Source: Roseovarius sp. TE539
GTDB lineage: Bacteria; Pseudomonadota; Alphaproteobacteria; Rhodobacterales; Rhodobacteraceae
DNA length: 64,000 bases
Reading direction: 5' to 3'
Assembly (NCBI RefSeq): GCF_003298505.1
Contig: NZ_QNGB01000010.1
Span: 62,001-126,000, forward strand
The notes under the pieces were generated by a model. It was not told the origin of the DNA, ran no database searches, and worked only from the letters and a program-made list of their open reading frames with translations. The position numbers and the translations under genes are program-made. Numbering within the stretch: the stretch's first letter is position 1; each line of letters begins with the position of its first letter. Below are positions 21,996 to 59,919 of the stretch, piece by piece.

Positions 21996-22858
21996 GACCG
22001 CACGAGGGCCTCGTAGCCTTCGGCGATCTCGCGGGTCAGGTTTCCGACCTCGAAATTGTAGTCCCCGATCTGACCCACCGGTGTGACCTCCGCGGCGGAG
22101 CCTGTGAGCCAGCACTGTTCGAATCCTTCAAGTTCTTCGGGCATGATATGGCGCTCATGCACCTTGATCTGCCGATCCTTCAGCAACCCGATCACGGTCT
22201 GCCGGGTGAGGCCGTTGAGAATTGCATCCGGCAAGGGCGTGTGGATCTCGCCGTCCTTGACGAAAAAGATGTTTGCCCCTGTCGCCTCGGCCACGTAGCC
22301 GCGGTAATCCAGGAACATGGCGTCGGAGCAACCCTTGGCTTCGGCTGCATGCTTGGACATGGTGCAGATCATGTAAAGCCCGGCGGCCTTGGCATCTGTC
22401 GGGATCGTGTCCGGGCTGGGCCGTTTCCATTTGGCAATGTCCAGCTTGGCGCCGCGTGTCTTGGCATCGCCGTAATAGCTGCCCCATTCCCAGGCGGTGA
22501 CGGCCATGCGCACCGGGTTGCGCGCCGCGGCCACGCCCATGTCCGGCCCGGCGCCGCGGAAAGCCACAACGCGCACATAGGCATTGCTGAGCCCATTGGC
22601 ATCGAGCACCTGTTTCTTGGCCGCCTCGATCTCGTCCACCGTGTAGGGGATCTGCATGTCCATCAGTTCACCGGATTTGAGCAGCCGTCCGGAGTGTTCG
22701 CGGCTCTTGAAGACCTTGCCGTCGTAGCAACGTTCGCCCTCGAACACCGAGGACGCATAGTGCAACGCATGGGTCAGCACATGCACCTTTGCATCTCGCC
22801 AATCCACCAATGCCCCGTCCATCCAGATCTTTCCATCGCGGTCATCATAGCCGGTCAT
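21992..22858 (-). CDS. ilvE: Branched-chain amino acid aminotransferase IlvE
   Basis: A 288-residue fold-type IV PLP enzyme interconverting branched-chain amino acids and their keto acids. Seen are IWMDGALVDWRDAKVHVLTH, broken here at the usual start of the fold, ALHYASSVFEG, and EATGANIFFVKDG, with NGLTRQTVIGL for the PLP phosphate. Three ATGs compete; 22858 is selected because AAGGGAG is six bases upstream, while the ATG at 22864 abuts that site. It is divergent from petP. The same ilvE-petP-petR order is common in Rhodobacteraceae as far as I recall. Confidence 0.95.
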   Translation of the reverse strand: MTGYDDRDGKIWMDGALVDWRDAKVHVLTHALHYASSVFEGERCYDGKVFKSREHSGRLLKSGELMDMQIPYTVDEIEAAKKQVLDANGLSNAYVRVVAFRGAGPDMGVAAARNPVRMAVTAWEWGSYYGDAKTRGAKLDIAKWKRPSPDTIPTDAKAAGLYMICTMSKHAAEAKGCSDAMFLDYRGYVAEATGANIFFVKDGEIHTPLPDAILNGLTRQTVIGLLKDRQIKVHERHIMPEELEGFEQCWLTGSAAEVTPVGQIGDYNFEVGNLTREIAEGYEALVRS

Positions 22859-22957
22859 CGCCATCTCCCTTGCGGCCACGTTTCCATTTCTTGCGCCAGA
22901 TACGTCCGAACCGGGCATAAAATTGCGCAGAAATCGCGATTCGCTACCAGTTTGATC

Positions 22958-22986
22958 TTGGAATGTCAATAAAGCTGACTTAATAT
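22958..22986 (+). promoter_or_regulatory. Candidate promoter of petP-petR
   Basis: TTGGAA at 22958-22963 and TAATAT at 22981-22986 are 17 bases apart, ending 36 bases before the petP start codon. This is among the clearest sigma-70-like matches in the window. Confidence 0.5.
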
Positions 22987-23021
22987 CGGGGTAAAGGCGG
23001 TTTCTGAAACGGAGACGGGGC

Positions 23022-23519
23022 ATGCCGGAGATGCAGGGCGGAGAAAACCTTCTTTACCTCACCGACGAGCAGCTCAGGCAGGGCATCGAGGCAATGTTCT
23101 TTGCATATCGCGGTTTTACCGCGGACCCGGATCGCATCCTCGAAACAATGGCCTACGGACGGGCACATCACAGGGCCATTCATTTCATCGCCCGCGGCCC
23201 GGGTACGACCGTGAACAACCTGCTGAACATTCTCGGTGTGACCAAGCAATCTTTGAACCGGGTGCTGCGCACATTGGTGGCGGACGGTCTTGTCGAGAGC
23301 CGGGTCGGGACATATGACAAACGCGAACGGCATCTTTATCTCACGGAGGAGGGCAAGGCGCTGGAACGGCGGCTTTCGGATGCGCAACGCGCGCGCATGC
23401 GCGATGCCTATCGCGCCGCCGGCCCCGACGCGGTGGCCGGGTTCCGCCAGGTTCTGGAGGCGATGATGGACAGTGACATGCGCCGGTGCTACCGCGCCAT
23501 CCGGGAGCGAGGTGAATGA
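23022..23519 (+). CDS. petP: MarR-family regulator PetP
   Basis: A 165-residue MarR-type winged-helix protein: the DNA-binding region spans about residues 55-115 (NLLNILGVTKQSLNRVLRTL for the HTH, then GTYDKRERHLYLTEEG for the wing). In Rhodobacter capsulatus the petP-petR pair is needed for photosynthetic and respiratory growth. Here petP overlaps petR by four bases (ATGA). GGAGACGGGG precedes the start. Identification as PetP rests on the coupled response-regulator gene and its similarity; no pet (bc1) genes are in the window. Confidence 0.85.
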   Translation: MPEMQGGENLLYLTDEQLRQGIEAMFFAYRGFTADPDRILETMAYGRAHHRAIHFIARGPGTTVNNLLNILGVTKQSLNRVLRTLVADGLVESRVGTYDKRERHLYLTEEGKALERRLSDAQRARMRDAYRAAGPDAVAGFRQVLEAMMDSDMRRCYRAIRERGE

Positions 23520-24217
23520 CCGATCCTGAACCGCATATCCTGATCGTGGATGACGATGAACGGATTCGGGGCCTGCTGCGGAAGTTTCTGGCGCGCAACG
23601 GGTTCCTGGTATCGGTCGCACGCGATGCGGGTCATGCACGGCGTGTCCTTTCCGGCCTGGAATTCGACCTGATCGTGATGGACGTGATGATGCCGGGAGA
23701 AGACGGCGTGAGCCTGACCAGTGACCTCCGGACGAAGGTTTCCACACCGGTGCTCCTGCTGACCGCGAAGGGTGAAACCGAAGAACGGATCAAGGGGCTG
23801 GAGGCGGGTGCCGATGATTACCTCGCCAAGCCGTTCGAGCCGCGGGAACTTCTGCTCAGGATCAATGCGATCCTGCGCCGCATGCCCGAGCCGGAGCAGG
23901 AAACGGCGATGCCGAAGATCCTTCAGCTTGGACCGGCGCGTTACGACATAGAGCGGGCCGAACTGATGCGTGGGGACGAACCAGTGCGCCTGACGGCCAC
24001 GGAAACCCAGTTGATGCGTATTTTTGTGGAAAACCTGCGCAGCCCGGTGAGCCGCACGAAACTGGTGGAGGATCTGGGCCGTGACCGGGGGCGTGCGCAG
24101 GAACGTGCAGTCGATGTTCAGATCACCCGGCTACGGCGCAAGATCGAGGCTGACCCGAAGCAGCCGCGTTACCTTCAGACGGTCCGCGGCGAGGGCTACA
24201 TGCTGGCGCCGGATTGA
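23516..24217 (+). CDS. petR: OmpR-family response regulator PetR
   Basis: A 233-residue two-component response regulator. The receiver domain has the acidic pocket VDDDE, phospho-acceptor Asp56 (VMDVMMPG), Thr (LLLTAKG) and Lys (LAKPFEP). The C-terminal winged helix (about 140-230) includes RAVDVQITRLRRKIE and RGEGYML. No histidine kinase gene is adjacent, as is usual for petR. Start overlaps the petP stop, so the two are coupled. Confidence 0.92.
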   Translation: MTDPEPHILIVDDDERIRGLLRKFLARNGFLVSVARDAGHARRVLSGLEFDLIVMDVMMPGEDGVSLTSDLRTKVSTPVLLLTAKGETEERIKGLEAGADDYLAKPFEPRELLLRINAILRRMPEPEQETAMPKILQLGPARYDIERAELMRGDEPVRLTATETQLMRIFVENLRSPVSRTKLVEDLGRDRGRAQERAVDVQITRLRRKIEADPKQPRYLQTVRGEGYMLAPD

Positions 24218-38686: not shown

Positions 38687-39292
38687 TCAGATCCAGGGAC
38701 GCTCGGCCTCGGCGCGGGCTTCGAACGCGTCAATCGCCGGCGCCTTCTCCATGGTCAGCCCGATATCGTCCAGCCCTTCGAGCAGGCAGTGTTTCTTGAA
38801 CGGGTCGATTTCGAAACCGATCACCTCGCCATCCGAGGTGGTGATGGTCTGCGATTCGAGATCCACCTCGATCCGTGCGTTTGCCCCTTTCTCCGCATCG
38901 CGCATCACCAGATCCACCTGCGCCTGAGGAAGGGTGATGGGCAGTATGCCGTTCTTGAAGCAGTTGTTGTGGAAAATATCCGCGAAGCTGGGGGCGATGA
39001 CGCAACGGATACCGAAATCCTTGATCGCCCACGGCGCGTGTTCGCGTGAGGACCCGCAGCCGAAATTTTCGCCGCTGACCAGGATTTCCGCATCACGATA
39101 TGCCGGTTGATTGAGCACGAAATCCGGGATCTCCTTGCCGTCATCATCATAGCGCATCTCGTCAAAAAGGTTCACGCCCAACCCCGAGCGCTTGATCGTC
39201 TTGAGGAACTGCTTGGGGATGATCATGTCGGTATCGACATTGATGATCGGCAGGGGCGCCGCGATCCCGGTGAGTTTTTCGAATTTTTCCAT
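38687..39292 (-). CDS. leuD: 3-isopropylmalate dehydratase small subunit
   Basis: A 201-residue subunit that with LeuC isomerises 2- to 3-isopropylmalate in leucine synthesis. Seen are [35 protein letters not shown] (substrate loop) and [20 protein letters not shown]. Its ATG overlaps the stop of the upstream unknown gene by one base (TGATG on the minus strand), so its translation depends on read-through from the inserted cassette. Normally leuD follows leuC or an unrelated spacer; here it is 1.6 kb away. Confidence 0.97.
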
Positions 39293-40425
39293 CAGTCGTC
39301 TCTTTCTTCTTTTATCTCCAAGTTACGTGGCGATACCAGATGCCACCTCTGCCCTCTAAATTCCAAATCGCCCTCAATCTGCACCTCGGCTTTCGAGTCG
39401 TGAGCTTCTATAGCGCGCGAATAAAGTTGGGCGGGAAGTTCAACAGTCACAGACCTCGGGCTGCCCTCAACCCACGTCCTCAGTTTCACGCGGCCTTGGG
39501 TCGGCGCAATTTCCCGATTGAGACCGGTTATGTAACCGGAGAGAACTTCATTCTTGAAAGGCTGTCGGTCCTTCAAAATTCTTGCTGCTTCTGAAAGAAT
39601 TTCGGCATCGGATTGTGAAAACAACCGTCGAAACCTTGATTCAGGCGTTGGCCGCGTTCTTGCCCAACTGAGTGAAAAATCAAGTCCTTCACCGTCACTG
39701 ATAAACTTAGAAACCGCCGAGCATAGATTCGCGCTAACGCCGCTGGAAACTACGCGTTCGAAAGCTTCGATATCTGAACCTCTACCCACCTCTGCAACCG
39801 CATCCAGAAGGGCATCCATTGCCATCACCAGAGTCCGCGTTACTTTCCGCCCAAACGGCTCGCTTTCAAGTTCTGGCCAAAATTCTTTCTGTTTTCCGTC
39901 GTCTAGAGATGGTGGGACTGGCGAATAAAGTGTGACAACAAAACTGCCATGCTCGGTTTGCCCAAGCTTGACAGTTTCAAGATACTCGGTTGCCCTTGCA
40001 TTGCTTCCACTTCTGAAAAACCTCTGCGCCGAAACAGTCGAACAAGCCGCAGCTAGCACGGCATCTTTACTTTGTTGAACCAGATCAACGCCTCTAATCA
40101 GGTCAATTGATCCATCCCCGTCTGCTTCAGGGGCGCGGAACCGGATCAGATCCCGATCTGAGGCGGCCAAATCTCTGAAGACCGAGATTTCGTCGCGGTC
40201 CTCACTCTCGGCTATCGTTGCTATTAATGCTGCTACTGATTGTGCGTAGTCGCGCAAATGAGTTGAACCCGGAGCGAAGACTTCCAGCCCGCTACGGTCT
40301 GTATACATCACGCCACGATCCCCTAAGTCGTCACCACGTATCCATTGTTGCGCCTTTAAATACGAGTGGATCGACATTGTACTGATGGAAATAAGCGCGT
40401 CTATGTCAGTTATGTGTGCTCTCAT
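39292..40425 (-). CDS. Unknown protein of the leuC-leuD cassette
   Basis: A 377-residue soluble protein that I do not recognise. The first 130 residues are mixed with an acidic cluster ([15 protein letters not shown]); the middle (about 190-300) is helical with [22 protein letters not shown]; the last 70 residues look beta-rich ([36 protein letters not shown]), like a small OB- or SH3-type barrel. No signal peptide or membrane segment. Base composition is much more AT-rich than its surroundings. Its ATG overlaps the DUF4365 gene stop (ATGA) and its own stop overlaps leuD's start (TGATG). The tight pairing suggests that the two cassette proteins act together. Confidence 0.8.
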
Positions 40426-40922
40426 AACGCGTTTGTCTCCGATTTTTTGATCAACTCTTGCATAGCATCAATGCCGAAAAGGTTTGATCGTGGTATGCGC
40501 ACCTGTTTCGAGCCTTTGTCGGTTTCCGGTTGACCAATGATGGAAACCCACCATGCGCACCTTTTTAGTACGAGTTGCTCCCGAGATATACTCAGCCAAT
40601 CTTCTGGTTCCGGGGGCAATTCCATGACGAGCAACAAGAGAGGCGTTTGCCGTGGAGCGACAAGATCGTTGTAGTTTTTTGCCTTTAGTTGGTATTTTAA
40701 CACATCTTCATCCCAGTCGGGTGACGATGTGCACTTAAGTTGAAATGCTATCGATGCTCGACGACTAGAGCGCGACGAGATTGTAATATCCGTACTGTCT
40801 CTGTCTAGGTTCTGGGTAGAGAAAGTGTACCCACAAGCCGTAGCAACCGCCGAAGCGTAGACAAACGACAACTGTTCTTTCTTGTCGTTTTCGCTGAGCA
40901 GCTGATTATCGGCGGTTGTCAT
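40422..40922 (-). CDS. DUF4365 domain protein (PD-(D/E)XK-like nuclease fold)
   Basis: A 166-residue protein matching the DUF4365 pattern: a helical start (KEQLSFVYASAVATACGYTF), then Asp45 in DSTDITIS and Gln61-x-Lys63 in IAFQLKCTSS, the D...(E/Q)xK arrangement of restriction-like nuclease folds. A hydrophobic strand (TPLLLLVMELP) and a basic C-terminal part follow. It starts four bases after the leuC stop and overlaps the next gene. DUF4365 proteins are often found in islands and next to defence genes; that this pair is a defence system is an inference. AT-rich, so probably acquired. Confidence 0.82.
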   Translation of the reverse strand: MTTADNQLLSENDKKEQLSFVYASAVATACGYTFSTQNLDRDSTDITISSRSSRRASIAFQLKCTSSPDWDEDVLKYQLKAKNYNDLVAPRQTPLLLLVMELPPEPEDWLSISREQLVLKRCAWWVSIIGQPETDKGSKQVRIPRSNLFGIDAMQELIKKSETNAL

Positions 40923-40926
40923 AAGG

Positions 40927-42330
40927 TCACATCACCTCGCGCACATCCGTCAGCCGACCGGTCACTGCCGCCGCCGCCGCCATGGCGGGGCTCATCAGGT
41001 GGGTGCGGCCGCCGCGGCCCTGGCGGCCTTCGAAGTTGCGGTTCGAGGTGGCCGCGCACCGCTCGCCCGGGCGGAGCTGATCGGGGTTCATCGCAAGGCA
41101 CATCGAGCAACCCGCGAGGCGCCACTCGAACCCGGCCTCGGTGAAGATGTCGGCGAGCCCCTCCTCCTCGGCCTGCGCCCGCACGAGGCCTGAGCCCGGC
41201 ACGATCATGGCGCGCAGCCCGTCCTTGATCTTCTTGCCTTTCAGGATCTCGGCGGCGGCGCGCAGATCCTCGATCCGGCCATTGGTGCAGGACCCGATGA
41301 AGACGGTGTCGATCTCGATTTCCGAAAGCGGCTTTCCGGCTTCCAGCCCCATGTAGTCAAGCGCACGTTGCGCCGATTCGACCTTGCCGCCGCTGAATTC
41401 GGACGGATCGGGCACCTGGCCCGTGATCGGCAACACGTCCTCGGGCGAGGTGCCCCATGTGACCACTGGCGCGATGTCCTCGCCCCGGATGGTGATAACC
41501 TTGTCCCAGTGAGCGTCATCATCGGAATACAGTGTCTTCCACCATGCCAGCGCCGCCTCCCATTGGGCGCCCTTGGGGGCGTGGGGCCTGCCCTTGACAT
41601 AGTCGAAGGTCGTTTCGTCGGGCGCGATGAGCCCGGCGCGCGCGCCACCTTCGATGGCCATGTTGCACACGGTCATGCGTCCCTCCATCGAAAGCGAGCG
41701 GATCGCCTCTCCGCAATATTCGATCACGTAGCCCGTGCCGCCGGCGGTGCCGGTTTCGCCGATCACCGAAAGGGTGATGTCCTTGGCGGTCACGCCCGGG
41801 GCAAGCTTGCCGGTGATCTCCACCTTCATGTTCTTCGACTTGGTCTGGATCAGGGTCTGTGTGGCGAGCACATGCTCGACCTCCGATGTCCCGATACCGT
41901 GGGCAAGTGCGCCGAATGCGCCGTGGGTGGCGGTATGGCTGTCACCGCAGACAACGGTCATACCCGGCAGGGTCCAGCCCTGTTCGGGGCCGACGATATG
42001 GACGATACCCTGCCGGATATCGTTGACGGGATAGTAGTTGATCCCGAAATCCTGCGCATTCCTGTCGAGGGCCTCGACCTGAATGCGGCTTTCCTCGTTC
42101 TTGATCCCGTCCACACGGTCGGGGGTCGTGGGCACGTTGTGGTCAGGCACGGCAATGGTGTTCTCGGGCTTGCGTACCATCCGGCCGGCCATGCGCAGCC
42201 CTTCGAATGCCTGCGGGCTTGTGACCTCGTGCACAAGGTGGCGGTCAATGTAGAGAAGGCAGGTGCCGTCCTCGGCCTCATGGGCCAGGTGGGCATCCCA
42301 GATCTTGTCATAAAGTGTCTTGGGGGACAT
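40927..42330 (-). CDS. leuC: 3-isopropylmalate dehydratase large subunit
   Basis: A 467-residue aconitase-family iron-sulfur enzyme of leucine synthesis. Seen are [31 protein letters not shown] and the cluster cysteines in IGSCTNGR and [12 protein letters not shown]. The start at 42330 has GAGAGGA upstream; the longer frame is rejected. The gene ends intact (LTDVREVM), so the cassette downstream did not disrupt it. Base composition is strongly GC-rich, in contrast to the following 1.6 kb. Confidence 0.97.
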
Positions 42331-59098: not shown

Positions 59099-59120
59099 GC
59101 ACAATAGGTTGTCATTGTGC
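59099..59120. promoter_or_regulatory. Candidate operator, GCACAAT-N8-ATTGTGC
   Basis: A perfect seven-base inverted repeat with an eight-base spacer, between the proposed promoter and the first gene of the HEPN module, in its 5' leader. Autoregulation, common in toxin-antitoxin pairs, would fit. Confidence 0.45.
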
Positions 59121-59147
59121 AGTATGATGATCAACGGGAGGCAGAAG

Positions 59148-59426
59148 ATGAAATTGGACAAAGAACTGAAGGAACGTGTCAAGCAAGCGATTATCGACCG
59201 CTTCGATGAAGGTGTTGTTAAGGATGTACGGCTGGAGTCCATCGAAATCCTCGAGAACGAGGAGGAAATAAGGCTTGTATTCACCATAGAGACCGATGCA
59301 GACCCGGAATTGATCGGCAGGCGGTTCTTCGGCCTCACAGACAAGGTTCGAACTGCGTTGGGAGACGAATGGGACGATTACTTCCCGATCCTGCAGTCGG
59401 AAATCCGACATGGCGCCGCGGCCTGA
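59148..59426 (+). CDS. Small acidic protein, partner of HEPN protein
   Basis: A 92-residue protein: a basic amphipathic helix (KLDKELKERVKQAIIDRF) then acidic beta-rich sequence (VRLESIEILENEEEIRLVF, TIETDADPELIGRRFFGL). I do not recognise a family. It has no obvious DNA-binding motif. GGGAGG stands seven bases before the ATG. It overlaps the HEPN gene by 17 bases. As the first, smaller gene of an overlapping pair it is a candidate antitoxin or specificity partner. Confidence 0.75.
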   Translation: MKLDKELKERVKQAIIDRFDEGVVKDVRLESIEILENEEEIRLVFTIETDADPELIGRRFFGLTDKVRTALGDEWDDYFPILQSEIRHGAAA

Positions 59427-59919
59427 TCCGAAACTTGCCGACGGTTTTCTGAAAACCGCACGGCAATTGATACCGCGACGGCAGAAGCCGGATCAGGCGG
59501 GCCTGCGGCGCAGCATCAGCAGCAGCTACTATGCGATGTTCCATGCGCTGGCACGTTTGTGTGCTGACGGTCTGCTGGGGACGCAGCCGGCGAAGCGATC
59601 CAACAAGGCCTGGGTCGAGGTCTATCGCGGATTGGCGCACGGTGAGTGCCTCCAAGCGTGCCAGAGGGCCCACAAGGTTGCGTTCCCTCAGGAAATCAAG
59701 GACTTCACAGATTCCTTTCAGCAATTGCTCACAGATCGGGAACGCGCTGACTACGACCCGACCGCTCGTTTTTCGAAGGAAGACGCTCTGAAAACACTTG
59801 GCTTGGCGGAAGCGGCTGTCGCCGCGCTCCAAGGTGTGTCGATGCGCGACAGGCGTGCCTTTGCCGCTTGGGTCTTGATCACCAGCCCCGGCGCGCAGAA
59901 GGCACGAAAACAGGCTTAG
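59410..59919 (+). CDS. HEPN-domain protein
   Basis: A 169-residue helical protein with a HEPN-type core: [19 protein letters not shown] near residue 40 and a later [12 protein letters not shown], which supplies an Arg-x3-His pair, one residue shorter than the Rx4-6H of classical HEPN ribonucleases. The rest is charged and helical ([20 protein letters not shown]). The start overlaps its partner by 17 bases. HEPN proteins of this kind are often RNA-cutting toxins or defence effectors; activity here is inferred only. Confidence 0.75.

Follow-up and report, generated by a model that had tools for sequence, protein, structure and literature searches.

Gene content and composition of the locus

The window analysed here is a whole stretch of 64,000 nt from Roseovarius sp. 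TE539 (GCF_003298505.1, contig NZ_QNGB01000010.1, positions 62,001-126,000 of the forward strand). In this window leuC and leuD, encoding the two subunits of 3-isopropylmalate dehydratase, are separated by two genes of the same strand, termed A and B below (Table 1). The leuC stop codon TGA is followed by the four bases CCTT and then by the ATG of gene A, while the next two junctions are overlaps. The coordinates, the strand and all junctions of this cassette, as given in the original prediction, proved exact when the sequence was re-checked.

Table 1. Features of the leuC-leuD region (positions in the window)
Feature	Position	Strand	Evidence or remark
leuC, 3-isopropylmalate dehydratase large subunit	40927..42330	-	TIGR00170, 799 bits (cut-off 560); start set at MSPKTL
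Shine-Dalgarno-like GAGGTGA in the last leuC codons	40932..40938	-	-10.2 kcal/mol against anti-Shine-Dalgarno; 9 nt before the start of A
Gene A, PDC-M02A, DUF4365 PD-(D/E)XK-type nuclease (predicted), 166 aa	40422..40922	-	PF14280, 3e-18; PDLC04278, 4.2e-54
ATGA overlap, stop of A and start of B	40422..40425	-	sequence
Gene B, PDC-M02B, 377 aa: N-terminal part and C-terminal OB fold (predicted, residues ~289-377)	39292..40425	-	
TGATG, stop of B and start of leuD sharing one base; no Shine-Dalgarno site upstream	39290..39294	-	sequence; -2.9 kcal/mol
leuD, 3-isopropylmalate dehydratase small subunit	38687..39292	-	TIGR00171, 267 bits (cut-off 116)

The cassette stands out sharply by its composition, with a G+C content of 0.499 where the remainder of the window has 0.634; the row counts by which this shift had been noticed, 26 G+C in 40681-40740 and 43 in 41041-41100, are both correct. 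Only 55 of 62,373 segments of equal length are as low in G+C, and the lowest value away from the site is 0.579, so that nowhere else in the window does a 1.6-kb segment reach the A+T content of the cassette. At third codon positions, G+C is 0.51 in A and 0.47 in B versus 0.83 in leuC and 0.76 in leuD. An assembly artefact was rejected on account of the layout shared by two genomes, this one and the Paracoccus-labelled genome described below. Apart from the leuD of this operon, no full leuD match was found in the window genome (G000); the one further leuD-like match there is weak (E 4.7e-5) and lies inside a 935-aa frame. Elsewhere in the window (59109-59919, + strand) are two small overlapping frames of 105 and 169 aa with no Pfam match, the longer of which, in our judgement, recalls HEPN proteins.

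Gene A encodes a predicted nuclease related to those of SPARDA

The DUF4365 domain spans residues 16-159 of the gene A protein. Residues D45, Q61 and K63, singled out in the original prediction as a nuclease-like arrangement, are invariant in alignments of 19 and of 58 rows. The AlphaFold2 model has a mean pLDDT of 93, and in a structural comparison it is closest to the DUF4365 nuclease chains of SPARDA (E 4e-7); Hjc resolvases and then the homing enzyme I-Ssp6803I rank next, in agreement with the nuclease fold that had been expected. A PDB profile search returned three EcoRV chains, none of them with an E below 0.19. By the core fold of its model and its D...(E/Q)xK residues, the protein is thus predicted to belong to the PD-(D/E)XK superfamily. 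TmuRE, a DUF4365-APAZ protein, is inactive as the mutant Q62A/K64A, whose positions are equivalent to the Q-x-K of gene A; in its active form, the complex shows non-specific DNA degradation after target recognition (PMC10810196). The active site of gene A is thus very probably intact.

Despite this shared fold and these shared residues, an assignment to SPARDA was rejected, since the length of A does not allow a fused APAZ and its partner belongs to PDC-M02B. In SPARDA the nuclease is fused to APAZ and a short Argonaute lies in the operon, whereas here A stands alone with 166 aa, leaving no room for APAZ, and the neighbours at the locus are leuC, B and leuD. The structural matches listed for B include no SPARDA chains, an absence that decides nothing.

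Genes A and B form the candidate system PDC-M02

Gene B gave no match in Pfam, and its PADLOC matches are all to PDC-M02B among those listed (25 of 39), the best (PDLC04298, 1.4e-129) covering residues 1-374 of 377. Its C-terminal OB fold is predicted from the model, with Foldseek matches at E 4.6e-3 at best; the 50 structural rows for this region also contain toxin B subunits and SilF, so that the OB fold is no proof of DNA binding. A PDB profile search with B returned three designed proteins, which were treated as noise.

Both proteins match almost end to end the two components of PDC-M02, a PADLOC candidate anti-phage system in which the DUF4365 protein PDC-M02A adjoins PDC-M02B, here with a 4-nt overlap. 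Gene order and overlap are those of most other copies, but the copy of the window differs in being placed inside a biosynthetic operon. A full-text search of open-licence papers found none naming PDC-M02, and among the matches listed there was none on its function or on an insertion slot between leuC and leuD; the defence label is thus itself a prediction, and a role of the pair in phage defence is a conjecture built upon it.

How tightly the two genes are associated was seen in their relatives. A single-protein scan of named genomes returned nothing, while a five-row alignment used as query retrieved 235 relatives; the best 80 of these 235 stretches, together with 6 viral contigs, gave 86 B loci. 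Gene A adjoins B in 75 of the 86 and was undetected in the other 11; of these 75 pairs, 49 overlap by 4 nt and 16 by 1 nt. In another set of loci with a B match, A was seen in 22 of 26, two of the four without it lying at a sequence end. A and B thus make up a two-gene unit that is tightly coupled and widely spread.

Its occurrence in sampled genomes is sparse. Within the 60 relatives examined, B was found once, in the window itself, and was absent from 35 other genomes of the genus (3 of them less than 90% complete). Counting the window each time, it is present in 4 of 394 genomes of the family (one match being fragments), 6 of 385 of the class (one match marginal) and 10 of 398 of the phylum (some being fragments). 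Foreign composition, predicted nuclease fold, A-B pairing and absence from the 35 other genus genomes agree with the view that the cassette is an acquired nuclease-plus-partner pair, and it represents a known candidate system in a new, unusual setting.

B also occurs in 16 plasmid and 2 prophage records. Fourteen plasmid or phage stretches were examined, 11 of which are annotated: genes for toxin-antitoxin, DUF262, Abi or cas3 lie close to B in three, and no defence-like neighbour stood out in the other eight. This presence on plasmids and prophages would fit a nuclease directed against plasmids or other elements, A cutting incoming DNA under the control of B and the leuC-leuD junction being just a tolerated landing place. 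The nearest characterised DUF4365 nucleases, those of SPARDA, degrade DNA when a guide-matched target is recognised (PMC10810196). However, the cassette consists of A and B only, with neither a methylase nor a guide protein, and PADLOC files the pair as a candidate for phage defence, albeit as a prediction; we regard this reading as unlikely.

A sister cassette in a Paracoccus-labelled genome

A second genome, labelled Paracoccus haematequi (L104, also G1168, with matching contig number and coordinates), likewise has A and B inserted between its leuC and leuD and carries the closest relative of the cassette among the 86 loci, with B proteins 62% identical. The two B proteins are sisters with an SH-aLRT of 100 in a quick tree without bootstrap, and the next relatives kept share at most 47% identity for B and 41% for A. 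In L104, the leuC stop TGA is followed by eight bases and the ATG of A (an alternative GTG start, overlapping leuC, is possible), the ATGA between A and B is present, and B ends on leuD with TAATG. Among 64 loci in which both genes were mapped, only L104 shares with the window the tight flanking by long frames on both sides.

Sister cassettes in the same slot with near-identical layout could mean that a common ancestor of this genus and the Paracoccus-labelled genome already had the cassette at this place, and that it was then lost almost everywhere else. Yet the pair occupies this position in only 2 of 394 sampled family genomes, and synonymous change between the two genomes is saturated in A and B versus a dS of 1.2 in leuC and 1.0 in leuD, which suggests that the cassettes predate the split of their hosts, although codon bias in leuC and leuD could also produce this pattern. 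Common inheritance in place seems improbable to us; as the cassette dS is saturated while that of leuC and leuD is not, the comparison leans, not firmly, to two separate arrivals. Gene conversion of the flanks with L104 was examined and rejected, the leuC tail and leuD head being 79% identical, which is close to the 78% and 76% of the genes as a whole. The pair is thus far from occupying all leuC-leuD junctions of the family with native composition, and a nuclease core is present in the model of A; on both of these points the original prediction stands.

Variable cargo between leuC and leuD

Comparison of the junction in relatives, which had been proposed for the pair alone, showed the pair in the window genome only within the genus sample, and beyond this revealed a junction of variable content. 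Strong leuD matches were obtained in 57 of 60 genus genomes (G033 gave none, G066 and G072 weak ones only). Of these 57 junctions, 32 show a one-base overlap of the two genes, 4 have a gap of 62-159 nt, and 20 (the window included) have one of over 300 nt, up to 2 kb; one was unplaced.

The cargo is diverse. In G015 (L033), an AAA_21 ATPase (397 aa) and a DUF4276 protein (183 aa) constitute the PADLOC candidate HEC-01; the stop of leuC runs into the start of the ATPase gene (TGATG), and the two cargo genes share four bases. G073 (L066) carries a RES-domain toxin with an Xre/MbcA/ParS-type antitoxin, whose match lies just over the cut-off (sequences read from L020). Other slots hold a DUF429 protein (G074), DUF308 membrane proteins (G011 by profile, G067 and G068 by likeness), a DMP19 protein (G069) and a 440-aa group 1 glycosyltransferase (G070, L059); in the last genome leuD apparently has a GTG start. 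The insert of G023 (L063), with 45% G+C, contains one 208-aa gene whose stop overlaps the leuD start; its product has no match in Pfam, PADLOC or NCBIfam at the thresholds used, and presumably has a GIY-YIG look. Finally, six genomes (G005, G014, G027, G034, G060 and G081; loci L036, L041, L046, L047, L048 and L062) carry membrane proteins of ~200 aa, of one kind by eye, encoded antisense to the leu genes; one of them, when tested, had no match in Pfam or NCBIfam. Since many of these cargos are not defence-like, the position is uninformative about defence.

A tree of leuC plus leuD (57 rows, L104 and 56 from the genus) requires at least 14 switches between overlap and non-overlap, gains and losses being counted together, short gaps being scored as non-overlap, and 25 of 54 inner branches being well supported with 12 open. 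As a control, another overlapping pair, which we take to be petP and petR, was the same in all 30 loci read (56 genomes having a match). The leuC-leuD junction is thus plainly variable where this control, a thin basis as a single junction, is stable, and the repeated, differing inserts are those of a recurrent insertion slot. Several relatives have petR only a few kb from leuCD; in the window, petPR (22000-24217) is some 15 kb from leuCD (38687-42330) and the neighbourhood differs from that of the relatives.

The slot is family-wide. With a degenerate pattern allowing up to 3 mismatches, the overlap junction was found in at least 40 of 295 family genomes; as it is the minority state there, the one-base overlap may itself be derived. 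Thirty of the 255 other genomes were sampled, and in 25 of them leuC lies within 1.5 kb of leuD, at 3-187 nt in 13 and at 329-1318 nt in 12. Eight of these 12 long junctions (L227, L229, L231, L235, L237, L246, L251 and L252) contain, by eye, a DUF308-like gene, possibly an older arrangement of the operon.

Translation and transcription of leuD

Shine-Dalgarno strength was estimated by a simple calculation in kcal/mol against what we assume to be the anti-Shine-Dalgarno sequence, random sites having a mean of -3.6 (sd 2.5). In the 32 genomes with overlap, the leuD site lies in the last leuC codons and ranges from -9.4 to -7.4. In the window, this leuC-embedded site now precedes gene A, at a spacing of 9 nt; in L104 it reaches -7.4 at 13 nt from the A ATG, farther than usual. 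Against the background of random sites, the -2.9 found before leuD in the window indicates that this gene lacks a Shine-Dalgarno site of its own.

Among 25 junctions without overlap (24 from the genus and L104), the leuD site is -5.0 or better in 22, and weaker than -4 only in the window (-2.9), in L104 (-3.4) and in G023 (-3.9). In exactly these three, the cargo gene ends on the start codon of leuD, which is true of no further sense cargo gene among those listed for the slot loci of the genus. In the further family sample, 3 of 30 genomes have a leuD site weaker than -4 yet no such overlap. From the layout, namely a missing leuD site, the TGATG overlap and the leuC site placed before A, we infer that leuD translation may depend on reinitiation after B.

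Two readings of this position can be set against each other. One is ordinary operon drift, the junction gaining and losing any small gene while leuD is translated normally and the position has no selected function. The mixed cargo, with its DUF308, DUF429, DMP19, glycosyltransferase and antisense membrane genes, suits it, as do the long gaps in 12 of the 25 junctions measured in the family, all from genomes picked for lacking the overlap; the confinement of weak leuD sites among the 25 non-overlap junctions to the very three with a cargo stop on the leuD start argues against it, and we hold it to be doubtful, if a real possibility. According to the other, the slot would be a hostage situation: a cassette fitted by its stop takes over the ribosome site of leuC, leuD would be reached only by reinitiation, and frameshift or nonsense loss of the cassette would cost the cell its sole leuD and hence leucine synthesis. 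This we offer tentatively, as a somewhat unlikely proposal at present. If true, it would be a toxin-free, translational addiction through which the reading frames of a costly nuclease system are preserved. The claim that the cassette is protected from loss stands at most for frameshift and nonsense changes, and not for a clean deletion, which could restore the overlap of the relatives.

Concerning transcription, three promoter-like sites, two of them inside the cassette, were found in the region versus 1.7 (sd 1.2) expected. An internal promoter above chance was not retained, the evidence being weak either way; as the number of sites is near chance, it is likely that the cassette uses the promoter of the leucine operon, as had been supposed.

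Proposed model and significance

The explanation that we favour, and consider rather probable, is a horizontally acquired copy of PDC-M02 lodged in the leuC-leuD slot, expressed from the leucine message, in which B controls the nuclease A and leuD is translated by reinitiation. The pair would have arrived horizontally in this variable slot and would probably be transcribed on the leucine-operon message. The ribosome-binding site embedded in leuC, which lies before leuD in relatives with the overlap, now lies before gene A, B presumably being translated via ATGA and leuD via reinitiation at TGATG. The nuclease may be kept inactive together with B, presumably in a complex, and B may sense a nucleic acid or protein linked to infection, perhaps through its OB fold. 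Once released, A would cut DNA and the cell would be killed or stalled, by analogy with SPARDA nucleases.

Defence hotspots flanked by core genes hold variable, partly defence-like cargo between conserved flanks. The leuC-leuD junction resembles them in having such cargo between conserved genes; it differs in that the flanks are two genes of one enzyme in one operon, at most 2 kb apart where measured in the genus. The core defence hotspots of Pseudomonas are one example (PMC10250203). Within the literature searched, both the use of the leuC-leuD junction as a cargo slot and the hostage coupling proposed here appear to be new.

Searches for defence genes usually turn to islands, prophages and plasmids, and a slot in a core biosynthetic operon would easily escape those based on islands. 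This one hosts varied cargo, including two defence candidates and one toxin-antitoxin pair, and can be mined across the family. The stand-alone DUF4365 nuclease with its predicted OB-fold partner is a biochemical target beside the better studied SPARDA nucleases. A cassette that captures the ribosome site belonging to the gene behind it would tie the translation of a needed enzyme to its own, which would be a simple way of keeping costly genes.
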